This document shows positions 1,269-8,187 of a stretch of 64,000 nucleotides of DNA, one piece after another. Position 1 is the stretch's first letter; each line of letters opens with the position of its first letter. The DNA is from Halomarina oriensis. GTDB lineage: Archaea; Halobacteriota; Halobacteria; Halobacteriales; Haloarculaceae. The translations under genes and the position numbers were made by a program. The stretch lies in assembly GCF_009791395.1 (NCBI RefSeq), contig NZ_WSZK01000015.1, forward strand, positions 62,001-126,000. Reading direction: 5' to 3'. A model generated the notes under the pieces. It was not told the DNA's origin. It ran no database searches and saw nothing but the letters and a program-made list of their open reading frames with translations.

Positions 1269-2711
1269 TCAGTAGAAGTCGGCCAGCCCCGACTGCTGGT
1301 CGCCGCTCTCCTCTCCGTCCGGGTCTTCCGATTCGGTATCGGTCGCGTTCGCGTCGTCGTTCGTCGCTTCGTCCAGTTCCGCCTCGGCGTCCTCGTCGTC
1401 GAACTCACCGCCCGCGAACGCGCCGTCGGAGTGCTCGACGGCCGCCTCCTCGCGTAACTGCTGGGCGTCCTCGACGATGGACTGGACCTTGTTCGTGTCC
1501 TCGCCACTGCCGGTGACGAACGCGACGTGTTTCGCCTCCAGCTCGTAGGCCGCGGCCATCCGCACCGTCAACTCGCGGTTCTTGCAGTGGTGGGTCATCA
1601 CTTCGAGGTACGGCAGCACCTGCTTGCGGGCGCTGGCCATCGACATCCCGCCCGTCTCGGCGATGTGTCGAGCGACGTAGTCGCGTTTGTCCCGCGAGGC
1701 GCGCGAACTGCCGAGTTTGCGCCAGTAGCTCGGTGGGCCGTAGCGTGTCCACCCGCCTTTCTGTCCGGAGCGTGCGGCGGCGACGCCGGCGGTCATGTTG
1801 TCGCTCGCGTAGCGCCAGTAGGAGTAGTTCTGCGTCGCCCGGACCCGACCCAGCCAGCGGTCGGCGTTGGCGAGGAAGCCGTAGGCGTCGGCGAGTTCGG
1901 TGCCGTGGTAGTCTTTCGGGAGGTTGTCCTCGATCCAGTTCACCATGTCGTCGGGCGTCTCGTCGACGTCGTAGGAGAACTTCAGTGCGCCCTCGGCGTC
2001 CTCCTCTTTGAACACCGCGTCGAGCAACTGGAAGATGCCCTCCGTCTTGTCGCGGCCGCCCGCCGTCACGTCCTCCTTGCGGACCTTCTCGCGGCCCTCG
2101 GCGGTCGCTTGCAGGTCCTTGACCGCCCCGCGCAGGTCCCCCGAGTTCGCCTCCGCGATAGCGTCGAGCGCGTCGGGTTCGTACTGGAGGTCCTCCTTCC
2201 GGCAGATGTCCCGGAGGACGGGGACGATAGAGCGCACCGAGACGTCGCGGAACTCGATGTCCTCACAGGCGTTCCGGAGGCCGTTGGACATGTCGTAGAA
2301 CTCGTTGGCGATGAGCACCATCGGCTGTTCGGCCTCCTTGACGAGTTTCGTGATGGCCCCCGACCCGCCCCGGTCGGCGTTGCCGTGGATGTTGTCCGCC
2401 TCGTCGAGGATGATGAGTTGGCGACCCGTCCCCGAGAGCGACCGGTTCATCGCCGCACCGCCGGCGTACTGCTCGATGTCGGCTTTCGTGCGCTGGTCGC
2501 TCGCGTTCAGTTCGATGGTCGGCCAGCCCATGTCGTTGGCGAGCGCGTGAGCGGCGCTGGTCTTGCCGACGCCCGGCGACCCGTGGACGATGACCGCCTG
2601 CCGGTGGTCGTCCCACGACTTCGCCCACTGGTGGAGCGCCTTGCGGGCCTTGTCGTTCCCCCGGACCTCCGCCAGCGTCGTCGGCCGGTACGTCTCCGTC
2701 CAGTCAGCCAT
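1269..2711 (-). CDS. rfcL: Replication factor C large subunit
   Basis: Large subunit of the archaeal clamp loader, which opens and loads PCNA at primer-template junctions. The protein is 480 residues. The Walker A motif HGSPGVGKTSAAHAL is near residue 45, Walker B (LIILDEADN) near 100, and an SRC-like arginine region follows. The acidic Asp/Glu-rich C-terminus ends in QQSGLADFY, a PIP-box-like motif (Q..L..FY) expected to bind PCNA. I chose ATG 2711 (MADWTETYRPTT), because family members begin here; the open frame continues upstream to 2855 without homologous sequence. It is divergent from the operon at 2839. Confidence 0.95.
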   Translation of the reverse strand: MADWTETYRPTTLAEVRGNDKARKALHQWAKSWDDHRQAVIVHGSPGVGKTSAAHALANDMGWPTIELNASDQRTKADIEQYAGGAAMNRSLSGTGRQLIILDEADNIHGNADRGGSGAITKLVKEAEQPMVLIANEFYDMSNGLRNACEDIEFRDVSVRSIVPVLRDICRKEDLQYEPDALDAIAEANSGDLRGAVKDLQATAEGREKVRKEDVTAGGRDKTEGIFQLLDAVFKEEDAEGALKFSYDVDETPDDMVNWIEDNLPKDYHGTELADAYGFLANADRWLGRVRATQNYSYWRYASDNMTAGVAAARSGQKGGWTRYGPPSYWRKLGSSRASRDKRDYVARHIAETGGMSMASARKQVLPYLEVMTHHCKNRELTVRMAAAYELEAKHVAFVTGSGEDTNKVQSIVEDAQQLREEAAVEHSDGAFAGGEFDDEDAEAELDEATNDDANATDTESEDPDGEESGDQQSGLADFY

Positions 2712-2795
2712 TACCGTCTCGTGGTCGGAGCGGCGGGTAATGGTTTCGGAGCGCCGGCCGTCAGCGTCGGCTGCCGCGTCCTCCCGGACACGACA

Positions 2796-2814
2796 GTTCG
2801 GCGAAACACCGAAC
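2796..2814. promoter_or_regulatory. Inverted repeat between rfcL and the FkbM operon
   Basis: GTTCGG and CCGAAC form 6-bp arms separated by CGAAACA, in the 127-bp divergent intergenic region. It lies about 25-43 bases upstream of the proposed GTG start of the FkbM gene. It could be an operator or mere coincidence in GC-rich DNA; there is no second copy nearby. Confidence 0.25.
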
Positions 2815-2838
2815 AGCCTGCCGCCCGTGTCTGTCTCA

Positions 2839-3561
2839 GTGTCCGTCTCACTCACCCGGCGGTCGACCGACCGAGCACGCCGAACCGGCCTCGGCCTGTA
2901 CCACCGGGCGGCGTCGCTGAACTACGCCTACGGGGTGGCGACGACGAAACGCACCGTCGCCGGCCCGTATCGGAGCTACGAACCGTGGAACAGCCACGGC
3001 GACGACTCCGGACTGGCGGCGCTCGGGACGCTGCCCGACGACGCCGTCGTCGTCGACGCCGGCGCACACGTCGGCGAGTACGCCCTCCCGCTGGCGGCGG
3101 CCGGCCGAACCGTCCACGCGGTCGAACCCGACCCCGTCGCCGCCGAGCGCCTCCGGGCGAACCGGTCGGCGACCGGCGTCGAGTCGCGGGTGACGGTCCA
3201 CGACTGTGGCCTCGGTGACCGCGACGGGACGGCGACGTTCTACCGCTCGTCGGCCCCGAAAGGGTCGGCGTTCGACGAGACGGCGGCGACCCGGTGGGGG
3301 GCGCGGGTCGTCGAACGCGTCGACAGACGGGTCGCTCGCCTCGACACGCTGGTCGACGACCTCCCACCACCGGACGCACTGAAACTCGACGTCGAGGGTG
3401 CGGAACTCGCGGCACTCCGCGGGGCCGAACGGACGCTCCGCGAGCACCGACCGCTGGTCGTCGTCGAACCACACGGCACCGACCGCGAACTCCGCGCCGA
3501 ACTCGTCGCGTTCGGCTACGCCGTCGACCCGTACGGCGACTGCTGGGTGTGTCGGCCGTGA
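2839..3561 (+). CDS. FkbM family methyltransferase
   Basis: A SAM-dependent methyltransferase of the FkbM type, usually O-methylating sugars or polyketides; 240 residues from the chosen GTG. Motif I is VVVDAGAHVGEYALPLA (about residues 67-83), followed by VHAVEPDP. The FkbM signature LKLDVEGAELAALRGAE is near 180-196, and VVVEPH follows. The start is uncertain: GTG at 2827 and at 2839 are both in frame and no ATG is close; 2839 leaves a short basic N-terminus. It is the first gene of the operon and overlaps the next gene by GTGA. Confidence 0.85.
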   Translation: MSVSLTRRSTDRARRTGLGLYHRAASLNYAYGVATTKRTVAGPYRSYEPWNSHGDDSGLAALGTLPDDAVVVDAGAHVGEYALPLAAAGRTVHAVEPDPVAAERLRANRSATGVESRVTVHDCGLGDRDGTATFYRSSAPKGSAFDETAATRWGARVVERVDRRVARLDTLVDDLPPPDALKLDVEGAELAALRGAERTLREHRPLVVVEPHGTDRELRAELVAFGYAVDPYGDCWVCRP

Positions 3562-4367
3562 GCGAGGTCGACCGCCGGCCGTCGGTCCCCGACCGTGTCC
3601 GTCGAACGTGGCTGGCGTGGGTCGGGGTCGCACTCCTCGCGCTCGTGCTCGGGGCCACGCTCGTCGCCCAGCGGATGACGGACTCGACGGGCCTGTGGTG
3701 GGCGCTGCTCGCCGGCGTGGTCGCCGTCGCACTGCTCGCCTACGTCCGTCTCCTCCTCGACCGGAACCGACCGGTCGACGCCGGCGAGGGGAGCGCGCTG
3801 CCCCCCGCCCGCTACGCGACGTTCGGACTCGCCAACGCGCTGACGACGGGGCGAGGACTGCTCCTCGCGGTACTCGCGGGACTGTTCGCCGTCCCGAATC
3901 CCGGCTGGCTCCCGGCGCTCCTGTACGGAAGCGTCGTGCTCCTCGACGTTCTGGACGGTCCGGTCGCCCGTGCCCGCGACCGGACCTCCGTGCTCGGGAC
4001 GCGCCTCGACACGGCCGTCGACGCCGCCGGACTGCTCGTCGCGGGCGGCCTCGGTGTCGCGCTCGGGACGCTCCCCGTCTGGTTTCTCGCCGTCGGCGCG
4101 GCCCGGTACTGCTACGTCGCTGGACTGTGGTGGCGTCGTCGCCGCGGACTCCACGTCGGGACGCTCCCGCCGAGTCGCGTCCGGCGGCCGCTGGCGGCGC
4201 TCCAGATGGTCGTGACGGCGGCCGCGCTCGCTCCCGTCGTCGGCCCGCCCGTGACGACGCTCGTCGCCACCGTGGCGATGACGCCGTTCGTCGTCGGGTT
4301 CTCTCTGGACTACCGGGCCGTCACGAGTCGGGACGTTAAGCAGTCGGCGGCCCAACGGCCGGTATGA
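3558..4367 (+). CDS. CDP-alcohol phosphatidyltransferase family protein
   Basis: An integral membrane enzyme that transfers a phospho-alcohol group from a CDP-alcohol to an acceptor with release of CMP; 269 residues. The full catalytic signature D-G-x2-A-R-x8-G-x3-D-x3-D is present: DGPVARARDRTSVLGTRLD followed by TAVD. About six hydrophobic segments surround it, and the first two (residues 10-60) precede the catalytic core. The GTG start overlaps the FkbM stop as GTGA, and the stop overlaps the next ATG as ATGA, so it is translationally coupled on both sides. Its location beside a pterin synthase homologue and a glycosyltransferase is unusual for housekeeping phospholipid synthesis. Confidence 0.9.
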   Translation: MSEVDRRPSVPDRVRRTWLAWVGVALLALVLGATLVAQRMTDSTGLWWALLAGVVAVALLAYVRLLLDRNRPVDAGEGSALPPARYATFGLANALTTGRGLLLAVLAGLFAVPNPGWLPALLYGSVVLLDVLDGPVARARDRTSVLGTRLDTAVDAAGLLVAGGLGVALGTLPVWFLAVGAARYCYVAGLWWRRRRGLHVGTLPPSRVRRPLAALQMVVTAAALAPVVGPPVTTLVATVAMTPFVVGFSLDYRAVTSRDVKQSAAQRPV

Positions 4368-4774
4368 ACGTCGCCGCTCGCAGCGCCCTCTCGCTGCTCG
4401 CCCGTGCGGTGGTGGTAGTGGTCCTCGCCGGGCCGGCGGTGGGGAAGGTGCTGGACTACGGCGGGCAGGTCGCCTTCTTCGAGAGCCTCGGTCTGCCCGC
4501 TCCCGGCCTCCTCGTCGCCCTCTCGGCGGCCGTCGAACTCGCCGCGCTGGTCGGCGTCGGCCTCGGTGTCGCGGGCCGACTGCTCGCGGTACCGCTCGTC
4601 GTGAACATGCTCGTGGCCGTCGTCGCCGGCGCACCGAACCCCGCGAACCTCGCCGTGCTGGCGGGGGCGCTCGTCGTCCTCGCACTGGGGACGGGGCCGT
4701 ACTCGCTGTGGTCGCCCGCCGTCGAGCGGCGGATGCCGTCGCCGGGGACCGACTCCGACCGAGGTGGTCGATGA
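4364..4774 (+). CDS. DoxX-like four-helix membrane protein
   Basis: A 136-residue protein with four predicted membrane helices and short loops. The first helix contains AGPAVGKVLDY and the second AAVELAALVGVGLGVAGRL, which matches the DoxX/MauE-like pattern of small redox-associated membrane proteins. No Cys pair is visible. It overlaps both neighbours by ATGA. What it does here is unknown; it could be a membrane partner of the dehydrogenase encoded directly downstream. Confidence 0.7.
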   Translation: MNVAARSALSLLARAVVVVVLAGPAVGKVLDYGGQVAFFESLGLPAPGLLVALSAAVELAALVGVGLGVAGRLLAVPLVVNMLVAVVAGAPNPANLAVLAGALVVLALGTGPYSLWSPAVERRMPSPGTDSDRGGR

Positions 4775-5766
4775 GTCGTCGCGTCCGCTTCGTCGCCCCG
4801 TCCGAGGTTCGGGTCGAGGACCGCCCGACACCGACGCCCGACACCGGCGAGGTGCTGGTCCGCGCCGCGGTGTCGGCGGTCAGTCCCGGCACCGAACTGC
4901 TCGTCTACCGCGGGACCGTTCCGACCGAGGACGGCGAGACGCTGGGCGCGCTCGACGGGGACCGCTCGTACCCGCTGTCGTACGGCTACGCCACCGTCGG
5001 CCGCGTCGAGGCCGTCGGCGACGGCGTCGACTCGAAGTGGCTCGACCGTCGGGTGTTCGCCTACGCCCCCCACGGCGAGCACGTCGTTGCCCCCGTCGAC
5101 GACGTGGTACCCGTCCCCGAGGACGTGCCGAGCGACGAGGCGGCCCTCCTCGCCAGTGTAGAGACGGCGCTCACGTTCGCGCTCGACGCCACACCCCGTG
5201 TCGGCGAGCGCATCGTCGTGTTCGGACAGGGGGTCGTCGGCCTCCTGACGACCGGCCTCCTCGCAGAGACGGCACTGACGACGGTGGTCGCCGCCGACTG
5301 CTACGGGCAGCGCCGGGCGCTCGCGGAGCGCTTCGGCGCGAGCGAGACCGTCGAGGCACCCGTCGACGGGACGCTCGCCGAGCGGTTCCCCGAGGGGGTG
5401 GACCTCGCCGTCGAGGTGAGCGGCGACCCCGACGCGCTGGACGAGGCCATCGACGCGACGGGCTACGGCGGACGTGTCCTCGTCGGGTCGTGGTACGGCA
5501 CCAAGCGCGCGAACCTCGCGCTCGGCGGGTCGTTCCACCGCGACCGCATCGAGATACGGAGCAGCCAGGTCAGCACCATCGCCCCCGACCTGCGTGGGCG
5601 CTGGGACCGCGAACGACGCTGGAGTGCCGCGTGGGACGCGATTCGGAGCCTCCCCGTCGACCGCCTGCTCACCCACCGAATCCCCGTCTCGGACGCACCG
5701 CGGGCGTACCGCCTGCTCGACGAGCGCCCCGAGGAGGCGGTCGGCGTACTCCTGACTCACGACTGA
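4771..5766 (+). CDS. MDR-family dehydrogenase without catalytic zinc ligands
   Basis: A medium-chain dehydrogenase/reductase of 331 residues. The nucleotide-binding motif VFGQGVVGLLTTGLLAE (about 152-168) is intact. The zinc-ligand Cys and His-Glu of classical alcohol dehydrogenases are absent: the sequence reads AVSPGTELLVYRG where CGxCxxD is expected and YGYATVG where GHE is expected. The structural Cys cluster is also missing. This resembles the BchC-like subgroup, which has a similar SxGTE motif. The start at ATG 4771 overlaps the previous stop as ATGA. The probable role is oxidation or reduction of a pathway intermediate made by the operon. Confidence 0.85.
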   Translation: MSRRVRFVAPSEVRVEDRPTPTPDTGEVLVRAAVSAVSPGTELLVYRGTVPTEDGETLGALDGDRSYPLSYGYATVGRVEAVGDGVDSKWLDRRVFAYAPHGEHVVAPVDDVVPVPEDVPSDEAALLASVETALTFALDATPRVGERIVVFGQGVVGLLTTGLLAETALTTVVAADCYGQRRALAERFGASETVEAPVDGTLAERFPEGVDLAVEVSGDPDALDEAIDATGYGGRVLVGSWYGTKRANLALGGSFHRDRIEIRSSQVSTIAPDLRGRWDRERRWSAAWDAIRSLPVDRLLTHRIPVSDAPRAYRLLDERPEEAVGVLLTHD

Positions 5767-5861: not shown

Positions 5862-6284
5862 ATGTACACGGTCACGGTGACGGAAGCGTTCGTCGCCCAG
5901 CACGTCCTGACGGTCCCCGACCCCGGCCCCGAGGGTGACCTGCACGCCCACCAGTTCACGGCCCACGCCGAGTTCCGCGGGCCCACGCTCGGCGAGCACG
6001 ACTACCTGCTCGACATCGACGACGCGCGAGCGGCGCTGGCGGCCGTCGCCGACGACTACCGCGACACGACGCTCAACGACCGCGCGGGGTTCCTCGACCG
6101 CAACCCGAGCGTCGAACTGCTCGCACGACGGGTCCACGAGGCGCTGGTCGAAGCTCTCGACGCCCCTGGCGTCGAGGAACTGGTCGTCACCGTCGAGGAG
6201 GACGACGTGGCGAGCGTCGCCTACCACGCCCCCTTCGGCGACGGTAGACCAGAGGACGACGCGACGGAGCGCCGGACGGACTGA
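5862..6284 (+). CDS. 6-pyruvoyl/6-carboxy-tetrahydropterin synthase homologue with altered active site
   Basis: A T-fold pterin enzyme of the QueD/PTPS superfamily, 140 residues. The zinc site is recognisable: H14 in FVAQH, then H28 and H30 in LHAH. The catalytic Cys expected four residues before the HxH (C-x3-HGH in QueD) is replaced by Glu24 (E-G-D-L-H-A-H). The Asp-His pair before LND is not conserved (YRDTTLND). The C-terminal Glu before AYHAPF is kept. A Glu in this position is reported for the PTPS-III group that replaces dihydroneopterin aldolase, so ordinary queuosine or biopterin activity is unlikely. It follows a 95-bp gap and is coupled to the next gene by TGATG. Confidence 0.85.
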   Translation: MYTVTVTEAFVAQHVLTVPDPGPEGDLHAHQFTAHAEFRGPTLGEHDYLLDIDDARAALAAVADDYRDTTLNDRAGFLDRNPSVELLARRVHEALVEALDAPGVEELVVTVEEDDVASVAYHAPFGDGRPEDDATERRTD

Positions 6285-7375
6285 TGCACGTCGGTCTCGT
6301 CGTTCCGGGGTCGCTCGACACCGTCTCGGGGGGGTACTGCTACGACCGGCGACTCGTCTCGCACCTCCACGAGGCGGGTGACCGCGTCACCGTCGTCTCG
6401 CTGCCGACCGGCGGCTACCGGCGTCGCGTCGTCGACTCCCTCCGTCCACGCCTCCGCCGGGCGCTCGCCCGCCCGTTCGACGTCCTCGTCGAGGACGAAC
6501 TCGCCCACCCGTCGCTGGTCGGCGTCGCGCCGGACGTCCCACGCGTCGCCCTCGTCCACCTCCTGCGAGGGGCCGACCCGAGCGACCCGCACCGCCGGAG
6601 CGCCCGCCTGCTCGAACGCCGGTATCTCGGCCACGTGGACCACGTCGTGGCGACGAGCGACGCGACACGGCGAGCCGTCACCGACCTCGCGGACCGACCG
6701 ACGAGCGTCGTTCCGCCCGCTGGCGACCGCTTCGCACCGACCAGCGTCGACGCGGCGGCGATTCGGCGACGTGCTCACGAGGGTCCGCTGCGGGTCGCCA
6801 CGCTCGGTAGCGTCGTCCCACGGAAGGGACTGGACACGCTCGTCGCCGCACTGGCCCGTCTCGACACCGACTGGCGACTCACCGCGATGGGAGACACGAC
6901 GGGCGACCCCGCGTTCGTCCGCGCGGTGCGACAATCGGCCGCTCGGCGGGGCGTCTCCGACCGAGTGACGCTGACGGGTCGAGTCGAGGACGGGACCGTC
7001 GCCGGCCACCTGCGGCGCGCGCACGTCTTCGCACTCCCCTCGCGCTACGAACCGTTCGGCATCGCCGCGCTGGAGGCGATGGGGTTCGGTCTCCCCGCTC
7101 TCGCTACCACCGCCGGCGGCCCACCGGAGTTCGTCACCGACGGCGCGGACGGCTTCCTCGTCGACCCGGACGACCCGGAGTCGCTCGCCGCCCGCCTCGA
7201 CACGCTGGCGACCGACCGCGAGCGACTGGCGCGGATGGGCGTCGTCGCCCGCGGGACGTTCGAGACCGCGCCGTCGTGGGACGACCGGATGGCGACGTTC
7301 CGGACGGTGCTCGAACGGGTCGCGGCCGGGGACACACCGCCACGCGACCGACCGGCCGAAGAGGTGTCGCCGTGA
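6284..7375 (+). CDS. Glycosyltransferase family 4
   Basis: A retaining GT-B glycosyltransferase, 363 residues, cytosolic. The N-terminal acceptor-domain motif VSGGYCYDRRLV is near residue 15. The C-terminal nucleotide-sugar domain has GSVVPRKGLDTLV (about 190) and the family EX7E motif in YEPFGIAALEAMGFGLP. The ATG overlaps the stop of the pterin enzyme as TGATG, and its own stop overlaps the next gene as GTGA. The sugar and acceptor are unknown; the tight coupling makes a pterin or a membrane-bound carrier a reasonable acceptor guess. A G7 run near 6328 is in frame here. Confidence 0.9.
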   Translation: MHVGLVVPGSLDTVSGGYCYDRRLVSHLHEAGDRVTVVSLPTGGYRRRVVDSLRPRLRRALARPFDVLVEDELAHPSLVGVAPDVPRVALVHLLRGADPSDPHRRSARLLERRYLGHVDHVVATSDATRRAVTDLADRPTSVVPPAGDRFAPTSVDAAAIRRRAHEGPLRVATLGSVVPRKGLDTLVAALARLDTDWRLTAMGDTTGDPAFVRAVRQSAARRGVSDRVTLTGRVEDGTVAGHLRRAHVFALPSRYEPFGIAALEAMGFGLPALATTAGGPPEFVTDGADGFLVDPDDPESLAARLDTLATDRERLARMGVVARGTFETAPSWDDRMATFRTVLERVAAGDTPPRDRPAEEVSP

Positions 7376-8187
7376 CCGCCGGCGGGCCTCCCGTCGGCTA
7401 CCTGCTCGCCAAACGCGGCGTCGACGACCGGGCTATCGACCGGGCCACCCTCGAACGGTTCGTCGACGGCCTCCCGGCCGAACCGCGACTGCTCGACGTG
7501 GGCGGCGGCGTCGGGACGATGCTCGACCGCCTGCAGGAGTGGGACCTGGTGCCCGCAGGGACGCGCTACACGCTCCTCGACGCGGACGCCGCCCTCGTGG
7601 CGACGGCCCGCGAACGACTCGCCGACGTGCCCGTCGAGACGACGTTCGTCGCGGACGACCTGCTCGCGTTCGCGGACGGGACGGACCGACGGTACGACGC
7701 CTGTGTCGCCGCCGCCGTCCTGGACCTGCTCGACGGCGACCGGGCGCTGGACGCGCTGGCGACGCTCGCCCCTGGTGGCCTGCTCTACGCGCCGGTGACG
7801 TTCGACGGTGTCACGCTGTTCTCGCCGCCACGGCCCGACGACGAGCGAGTCCTCGGCTGGTACCACGACCACATGACCGCCCGCGACGGGTCGCCGGCGG
7901 GGGGCCGCCGACTGCTGGCCGCCCTCTCCCGGTCGGACTGCGACACGCTGGCCGTCGCGCCGAGCGACTGGCACGTCCACCCACCGTACCACGAGGGTGA
8001 GACACGGTTCCTCGCCGCCATCCTCGACACCGTCGAGGAGGCGCTGACGGGGTTCGACCCCGTCGAGAACGGGGTACTGAGCGCGTGGCTCACCGCCCGC
8101 CGCGACACGCTGGCGGCAGGTGAGTTGGCCTACGTCGCACACAACCTCGACGTGCTCGTGAGGCTGTCGGCACCACTCGAACACTGA
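7372..8187 (+). CDS. Class I SAM-dependent methyltransferase
   Basis: A 271-residue Rossmann-fold methyltransferase starting at GTG 7372 (overlap GTGA). Motif I is LLDVGGGVGTMLDRL (about 41-55), followed by YTLLDADAALVATARERL and a motif IV-like YDACVAAAVLDLL. The centre resembles methyltransferases acting on small molecules or lipids rather than RNA. It closes the operon that begins at 2839, and the next gene has its own upstream region. The N-terminal residues before GTG are open but not conserved in character. Confidence 0.85.
   Translation: MTAGGPPVGYLLAKRGVDDRAIDRATLERFVDGLPAEPRLLDVGGGVGTMLDRLQEWDLVPAGTRYTLLDADAALVATARERLADVPVETTFVADDLLAFADGTDRRYDACVAAAVLDLLDGDRALDALATLAPGGLLYAPVTFDGVTLFSPPRPDDERVLGWYHDHMTARDGSPAGGRRLLAALSRSDCDTLAVAPSDWHVHPPYHEGETRFLAAILDTVEEALTGFDPVENGVLSAWLTARRDTLAAGELAYVAHNLDVLVRLSAPLEH

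Follow-up and report, generated by a model that had tools for sequence, protein, structure and literature searches.

A PTPS-fold protein of Halomarina oriensis with glutamate at the QueD cysteine position may well belong to a conserved cassette for an uncharacterised pterin pathway

What does a PTPS-fold protein do when the catalytic cysteine is replaced? The question is raised by an open reading frame at 5862-6284 on the plus strand of the window, which is the whole stretch of 64,000 nucleotides of Halomarina oriensis DNA that was analysed. The frame starts with ATG and encodes 140 amino acids. A sequence-only reading of the window had judged the protein unlikely to be QueD and likely to catalyse another pterin-type reaction, and this judgement agrees with its sub-cut-off QueD score, its changed residues, and the ordinary QueD elsewhere in the genome. 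The operon and its bacterial counterparts, from which most of the functional information comes, were not part of that reading. On balance, the protein probably represents the archaeal side of a PTPS subfamily that is so far uncharacterised and has PTPS-IV as its bacterial side, and it is probably one enzyme of a conserved cassette for a proposed pterin pathway from GTP. Under this proposal, the absence of the Cys would reflect membership of a separate, uncharacterised pathway, the genes of which occur linked to one another in archaea and in many bacteria.

The protein is a member of the PTPS superfamily based on its PF01242 score (75.4 bits, cut-off 22.4). It did not reach the cut-off of the curated QueD model TIGR03367, an NCBIfam equivalog (29.4 vs 89.25 bits), or that of the 6PTHBS model (21.4 vs 125.5 bits), and a PHROGs search returned only a weak QueD-like match. 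The sequence-only reading had suggested a structure prediction with an overlay on QueD and PTPS-III. The AF2 model (pLDDT 89.9, pTM 0.83), based on an alignment of the window protein and 49 bacterial rows, has the PTPS fold, and its best Foldseek match was SCO6650 from Streptomyces coelicolor (3d7j; E 2.2e-11, TM 0.82), with QueD 4ntk a close second (1.5e-10, TM 0.74). In VIA-align, 3d7j had a Z of 18.9 (rmsd 1.5, 125 aligned; next best Z 16.8), and the P. vivax PTPS structures had a Z of about 15.

When the protein was aligned to the E. coli QueD entries 4ntk and 3qna, Glu24 (codon 5931-5933) sat four residues before HGH, at the QueD Cys position. This position is Ala in both entries, which we take to be Cys mutants, and Cys in the QueD of the Halomarina genome itself (KCSRPHGH). 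H28 and H30 (codons of His28-Ala29-His30, 5943-5951) align on the HGH histidines and H14 (5901-5903) is kept, the three being the predicted Zn ligands, and R67-D68 (6060-6065) align on the Asp-His dyad, presumably D70-H71 in E. coli numbering. The motif is thus E-x3-H-x-H (ExxxHAH, with Gly at -3), where PTPS-I/QueD have CxxxHGH and an Asp-His dyad, and no Cys was found anywhere in the 140-residue translation, so the PTPS-II motif CxxxxxHGH is likewise absent. The PTPS fold, the Zn triad, the anchor Glu, and the LND and NPS/E region are shared with PTPS-I/QueD; the Cys, the dyad, and the genome context differ, and an ordinary QueD (KCSRPHGH and WDH) is encoded at C1:45307 of the same genome.

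These residues are conserved in haloarchaea. Within the class, 194 genomes were sampled, of which 116 had a match at E <= 0.001 and the other 78 had none; two of the 116 (G057 and G127) matched weakly, and the regions extracted from them gave no match. For the conservation analysis, 59 of the 61 loci searched gave a match, and the resulting 45 distinct sequences made 46 with that of the window. H14, H28, H30, D68, and N72 are present in all 46, E24 and E85 in 45 each (the single exception at position 24 being Asp), R67 in 41, and E113 in all 45 that extend that far, while position 29 is Ala in the window copy (HAH) and Ser in the other 45 (HSH). The claims that the zinc ligands are kept and that E-x3-HxH replaces C-x3-HxH are therefore confirmed by alignment and by conservation across the branch. 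The claim that the Asp-His dyad is not conserved was correct as far as its absence goes, but the dyad is replaced by a conserved Arg-Asp and not merely lost. The near-invariance of E24 and D68 indicates a conserved branch and not a decaying copy. The nearest plasmid-borne relatives are from Haloarcula, Halomicrococcus, Halobellus, Haladaptatus, and Natronorubrum, and most matched plasmid proteins are annotated as 6-carboxytetrahydropterin synthase.

Some genomes of the sample deviated. In G038 (C1:179624-180006 and 1683286-1683666), one gene copy appeared as two partial matches and is possibly broken, a diverged second copy being present; G154 likewise showed a split match. No second PF01242 gene was found in G049 and G060, so that the canonical QueD may be absent there.

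Relatives were also found in bacteria. A tblastn search with SCO6650 matched 25 plasmid records (20 bacterial and 5 haloarchaeal). A scan of genome contigs with seven bacterial protein queries matched at least 595 stretches and confirmed at least 573, from which the best 80 of 573 loci were used (Proteobacteria, Actinobacteria, and one acidobacterial and one myxobacterial assembly). As the scan used two peptide patterns, FGPAQ..H and RDH.M..H, the bacterial residue counts describe a selected set whose uniformity is partly by construction. In the 87 bacterial rows, which include these best 80 of 573, Ala24, Ala30, His9, His14, His28, and Glu113 were each present in 87 and His115 in 85. In the 31 haloarchaeal rows, Glu24 was present in 30 and His30 in 31, and the four most frequent residues at position 9 did not include His. 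Glu24 and the full Zn triad are thus not cassette-wide, given Ala24 and Ala30 in all 87 bacterial rows (the best 80 of 573 included), and the residues suggest that the chemistry may differ between the bacterial and haloarchaeal branches.

FGPAQ is the published signature of PTPS-IV, and this subfamily and part of its neighbourhood, PF00925 and PF01872, are described in PMC5445326. The bacterial PTPS-IV examined (including the best 80 of 573) have FGPAQ, HGA, Ala24, Ala30, and mostly Tyr at position 68, with His9 and mostly His115 instead, whereas the window protein has PGPEG, HAH (HSH in the family), Glu24, His30, and Asp68. PF00925 and PF01872 were found in 47 and 51 of the 87 bacterial loci (the best 80 of 573 included), and neither is in the window cassette. 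The closest homology of the window protein is to SCO6650 by alignment, Foldseek, VIA-align, and HMM, and this COG0720 subfamily (PTPS-IV; SCO6650, 3d7j) is its best structural and profile match and has the same partners in its operons, arranged in the same order. An HMM of the bacterial branch scored the window protein at 51.7 bits, four haloarchaeal QueD at no more than 8.5, and four other PTPS rows at no more than 20.8; a small QueD HMM scored it at 26.9. By hhalign, the haloarchaeal set matched the bacterial set at E 8.6e-23 and QueD, also significantly, at E 5.4e-15. A 68-row tree, built from the 31 haloarchaeal rows, one in three of the 87 bacterial rows, and 8 outgroup rows, placed the haloarchaeal and bacterial sets each as one group and joined them, apart from the QueD-like rows (support 97/80); as it is based on 132 columns, has long branches, and was rooted at the midpoint, it counts as weak evidence. 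Of the 85 genomes labelled as same phylum within a phylum-level sample of 100, 4 matched, the weakest being G217 (E 5.5e-4), and the loci of the other three were examined. One of the three, archaeal but non-haloarchaeal (L187), reads FGPETRLHGH, between the window and bacterial forms. PTPS-V, of unclear function, is mentioned in passages of PMC5041015.

The window gene is part of a series on one strand, in the order CDP-alcohol phosphatidyltransferase, DoxX, MDR, PTPS, GT4, methyltransferase, with overlapping stop and start codons at four of the five junctions (ATGA, ATGA, TGATG, and GTGA) and a gap of 95 bases between MDR and PTPS. All genes are on the plus strand. The first encodes a membrane protein of the CDP-alcohol phosphatidyltransferase family (3549-4367, GTG start at 3549 guessed; PF01066, 57.9 bits for 3687-4367), and a DoxX family membrane protein follows (4364-4774; PF07681, 42.1 bits) with an ATGA overlap at each end. 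The MDR dehydrogenase (4771-5766; PF00107, 43.7 bits) is "zinc-binding" by family name only, and the usual catalytic-zinc ligands were not seen in it by eye. Downstream of the PTPS gene, the start of a GT4-family glycosyltransferase (6284-7375; PF00534, 118.7 bits) overlaps the PTPS stop (TGATG), and a class I SAM-dependent methyltransferase (7372-8187; PF08242, 32.7 bits) overlaps the glycosyltransferase (GTGA). An FkbM-family methyltransferase upstream (2935-3561, GTG start at 2935; TIGR01444, 100.6 bits) is a possible accessory; elsewhere FkbM was matched in one haloarchaeal locus (L049), annotated in another locus (L068), and FkbM-like by eye in 6 of 41 bacterial loci. Outside the cassette, the Halomarina genome has one GCH III (C24), one RibD_C (C4), and four creatininase-family genes.

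A PADLOC search with five proteins gave a single weak match, of the methyltransferase at 7372-8187 to mads_2 (32 bits); it is probably a generic methyltransferase match, and we rejected a defence link.

To describe the gene order across loci, we used 33 haloarchaeal loci, consisting of 29 regions picked for spread and for ordinary or weak matches (two from G038), the window upstream stretch (L053), and three plasmids, together with the 87 bacterial loci. Three haloarchaeal loci (L053, L056, and L057) and one bacterial locus (L148) were without a PTPS match, leaving 30 and 86 for positional counts. The gene immediately 5' of PTPS, on its strand, was MDR in 83 of the 86 bacterial loci (including the best 80 of 573) and in 20 of the 30 haloarchaeal ones; the gene immediately 3' was GT4 in 80 and 20, respectively. 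The order MDR-PTPS-GT4-methyltransferase was found in 74 of the 86 bacterial loci (the best 80 of 573 included) but in only 12 of the 30 haloarchaeal ones; the shorter order MDR-PTPS-methyltransferase was seen in another 2 bacterial and 7 haloarchaeal loci. By family, with example proteins of the neighbour families compared with Pfam, the 87 bacterial loci (again including the best 80 of 573) had MDR in 86, GT4 in 83, class I methyltransferase in 80, CDP-alcohol in 74, RibD_C in 51, GCH II in 47, creatininase in 42, and LPG_synthase_TM in 38. The 33 haloarchaeal loci had methyltransferase in 26, CDP-alcohol in 20 (including the window upstream stretch), GCH III in 8, and creatininase in 2, and bacterial queries found no RibD_C in them. 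PTPS and partner distances were correlated weakly within haloarchaea (rho 0.33-0.56) and at rho 0.75-0.80 in bacteria (including the best 80 of 573). The cassette was found, whole or in part, on annotated plasmids of Streptomyces, Thiodictyon, Methylosinus, Palleronia, Neorhizobium, Microbacterium, Halomicrococcus, Natronorubrum, and Haloarcula; for some of these, the stretch shown does not include the CDP-alcohol gene, and the Palleronia glycosyltransferase stands apart.

Several further neighbours were observed. The recurrence of the LPG_synthase_TM membrane protein (e.g., L073 10273-11109) points to a membrane step. A DUF7475 membrane protein is beside 17 of the 33 haloarchaeal cassettes, and a GFO/IDH-aldo/keto reductase fusion (AKR; e.g., L072 3919-5889) is beside 8. 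A Streptomyces sp. NBC_00019 plasmid has a PTPS-IV gene without the cassette and a GPP34-family gene about 3 kb off.

GTP cyclohydrolases are linked to the cassette. The 8 GCH III genes near the 33 haloarchaeal cassettes compare with about 0.3 expected (binomial 1.4e-9, under a rough model), and five of them are directly 5' of MDR. GCH II holds that place in two of the three other archaeal loci and in 1 of 86 bacterial loci (including the best 80 of 573), being otherwise elsewhere in the locus. In L185, GCH II and MDR form one open frame of 577 amino acids (1990-3723), a possible gene fusion on a contig from a draft genome that is 61% complete. A second GCH III was found elsewhere in 4 of the 8 genomes with a cassette GCH III, and 6 of 6 comparison genomes had a single copy; where the cassette copy was the sole one found, in the other 4 of 8, it must serve riboflavin/F420 too. 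The window cassette and most haloarchaeal cassettes are without GCH, RibD_C, or creatininase.

In the Streptomyces cassettes, GCH II has Met at the position of E. coli Tyr105. Spoonamore and colleagues are said to have found in 2006 that Met at this position makes SCO6655, which we take to be the FAPy-forming GCH II of Streptomyces, stop at FAPy, and we assume the same of the non-Tyr GCH II of the cassettes. FAPy-forming cyclohydrolases of the type of archaeal GCH III and SCO6655 are in or beside many cassettes, although the cassette is not among their established outlets, which are riboflavin and F420. Creatininase co-occurred with GCH II lacking the Tyr105 equivalent in 30 of 30 bacterial loci but with the Tyr type in only 7 of 17 (including the best 80 of 573; Fisher 3.8e-6 on the 30/0 vs 7/10 table, with kinship ignored). 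This table leaves out the E. coli reference and a partial match (L149_3024, "T"), and one of the 10 cases with Tyr and no creatininase (L149) may lie outside the cassette. An archaeal locus, L186, has creatininase adjoining a Tyr-type GCH II, against the expected pairing; together with the 7 Tyr-type bacterial genes that also occur with creatininase (of 17, with the best 80 of 573 included), this makes the FAPy/formamidase pairing imperfect. FAPy formamidase activity was shown experimentally for an enzyme first annotated as creatininase, according to passages of PMC9478397.

With these data, we considered other roles for the protein. It is unlikely to be a non-catalytic binding or regulatory subunit accompanying glycan or lipid genes: membrane proteins are among its partners and the bacterial members examined (including the best 80 of 573) are without a Cys equivalent and one Zn ligand, but in haloarchaea all three His, Glu24, Asp68, and Glu113 are kept almost without exception, and the genes alongside, of cyclohydrolase, reductase, and formamidase type, point to chemistry on a pterin or pyrimidine.

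A PTPS-III-like substitute for dihydroneopterin aldolase in folate synthesis appears quite unlikely. The sequence-only reading took Glu at this position as the PTPS-III hallmark, and PTPS-III (Plasmodium and the bacterial ExxHGH proteins) does share a catalytic-loop Glu instead of Cys; in passages of PMC2229834, Glu38 of Plasmodium PTPS is needed for 6-hydroxymethyldihydropterin production, and the P. vivax structures align with our model. However, the published motif, ExxHGH, has Glu three before the first His (passages of PMC5041015 and PMC5445326), and Glu in the window protein is at -4, one residue further from HxH, so the hallmark does not apply. A Glu one residue off could still act alike, and a different motif is not proof of different chemistry. 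The suggested aldolase-like role is not needed, as a member of PF04038, the dihydroneopterin aldolase family of archaea, was found in each of the 59 haloarchaeal genomes examined, that of Halomarina among them; in addition, 78 of 194 genomes of the class are without a matching gene, and no folate gene was recognised by eye in the recurrent neighbourhood.

A role in F420 synthesis is very unlikely. Passages of PMC5041015 cite unpublished data placing PTPS-IV in the F420 pathway, GCH III and RibD_C are common to both pathways, and shared early intermediates are possible. Yet CofG (FO synthase subunit) was over the cut-off in 194 of 194 haloarchaeal genomes vs 116 of 194 for our gene, and in only 6 of 20 cassette-bearing bacterial genomes (14 of 20 without); 17 of these 20 had a match at E <= 0.001, 11 of them far below the cut-off. 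The annotation of most matched plasmid proteins as 6-carboxytetrahydropterin synthase, and the single PF01242 gene in G049 and G060, could suggest that the protein is a QueD that has diverged. This is highly improbable given the 29.4 bits against the cut-off of 89.25, the absence of Cys and Asp-His with conserved substitutes, the normal QueD already in the Halomarina genome, and no QueC/QueE either by Pfam or NCBIfam in the seven neighbour genes or by eye in the recurrent neighbour families.

For the pathway from GTP that we favour, the following route is proposed. GTP would be opened by GCH III in haloarchaea, or by GCH II in bacteria and some other archaea, to FAPy or a diaminopyrimidine ribotide. 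As unrelated cyclohydrolases leading to FAPy or its deformylated form are both tied to one cassette, a FAPy-type compound is the likely entry. A creatininase-type formamidase would strip the formyl group where needed, and RibD_C and the MDR dehydrogenase would adjust the ribose-derived chain; a shift of the carbonyl from C1' to C2' by this redox pair would make closure to dihydroneopterin phosphate possible. Bacterial riboflavin synthesis deaminates the ring first and reduces the chain afterwards, and many bacterial cassettes have a formamidase-type gene and RibD_C of their own. The haloarchaeal precursor could also be supplied by riboflavin/F420 genes at other sites of the genome; this would account for the lack of a cyclohydrolase in the window cassette. 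The haloarchaeal riboflavin genes include arfA and arfC (passages of PMC8305020), and if these already yield those intermediates, this would explain why most haloarchaeal cassettes are without a formamidase-type gene and RibD_C.

The PTPS-fold protein would hold the 2-amino-4-oxo-pyrimidine edge via Glu113, which is the pterin anchor by homology and suggests that the substrate retains this edge. A Zn bound by H14, H28, and H30 and a Glu24/Asp68 acid/base pair could then carry out a side-chain isomerisation, a retro-aldol step, or pterin ring closure. The GT4, methyltransferase, and CDP-alcohol phosphatidyltransferase would decorate the product to a glycosylated, methylated pterin, maybe with a phosphodiester or lipid; these product features are guesses, since the families concerned (MDR, GT4, methyltransferase, and CDP-alcohol) are all generic. 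Family, predicted fold, residue conservation, and the linkage to the partner and cyclohydrolase genes are observed, from which we infer the pathway direction, substrate, metal binding, reaction, and product. We offer only tentatively the more specific idea that the cassette makes a cofactor or pigment not described before, namely a pterin with glycosyl and methyl groups and a phosphodiester or lipid link, made via FAPy and diaminopyrimidine ribotide without GTP cyclohydrolase I, with the PTPS-fold enzyme closing the ring or performing a side-chain step with Glu/Asp in place of Cys/Asp-His. An orphan compound name from haloarchaea is "phosphohalopterins", and such a compound may account for them. 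Glycosylated pterins are known, namely solfapterin in archaea (from a reference title) and cyanopterin in cyanobacteria (passages of PMC3546692).

In the literature searched, outside of which most subscription journals lie, we found no description of the whole cassette, its spread over two domains, the haloarchaeal E-x3-HSH branch, or the GCH III variant, and no paper on SCO6650. A search combining haloarchaea, 6-pyruvoyl, and pterin found nothing in that literature, nor was "phosphohalopterin" found in the literature searched for pterin-glycoside names.

Sequence, context, and co-occurrence argue against the 6-carboxytetrahydropterin synthase label that most matched plasmid relatives bear. 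The conserved partners give concrete candidate substrates and outline the proposed pathway, and its entry is directly testable given GCH III and GCH II at the equivalent place, the GCH II-MDR frame, and the second GCH III in four genomes. The system would show the PTPS fold working without the catalytic cysteine.
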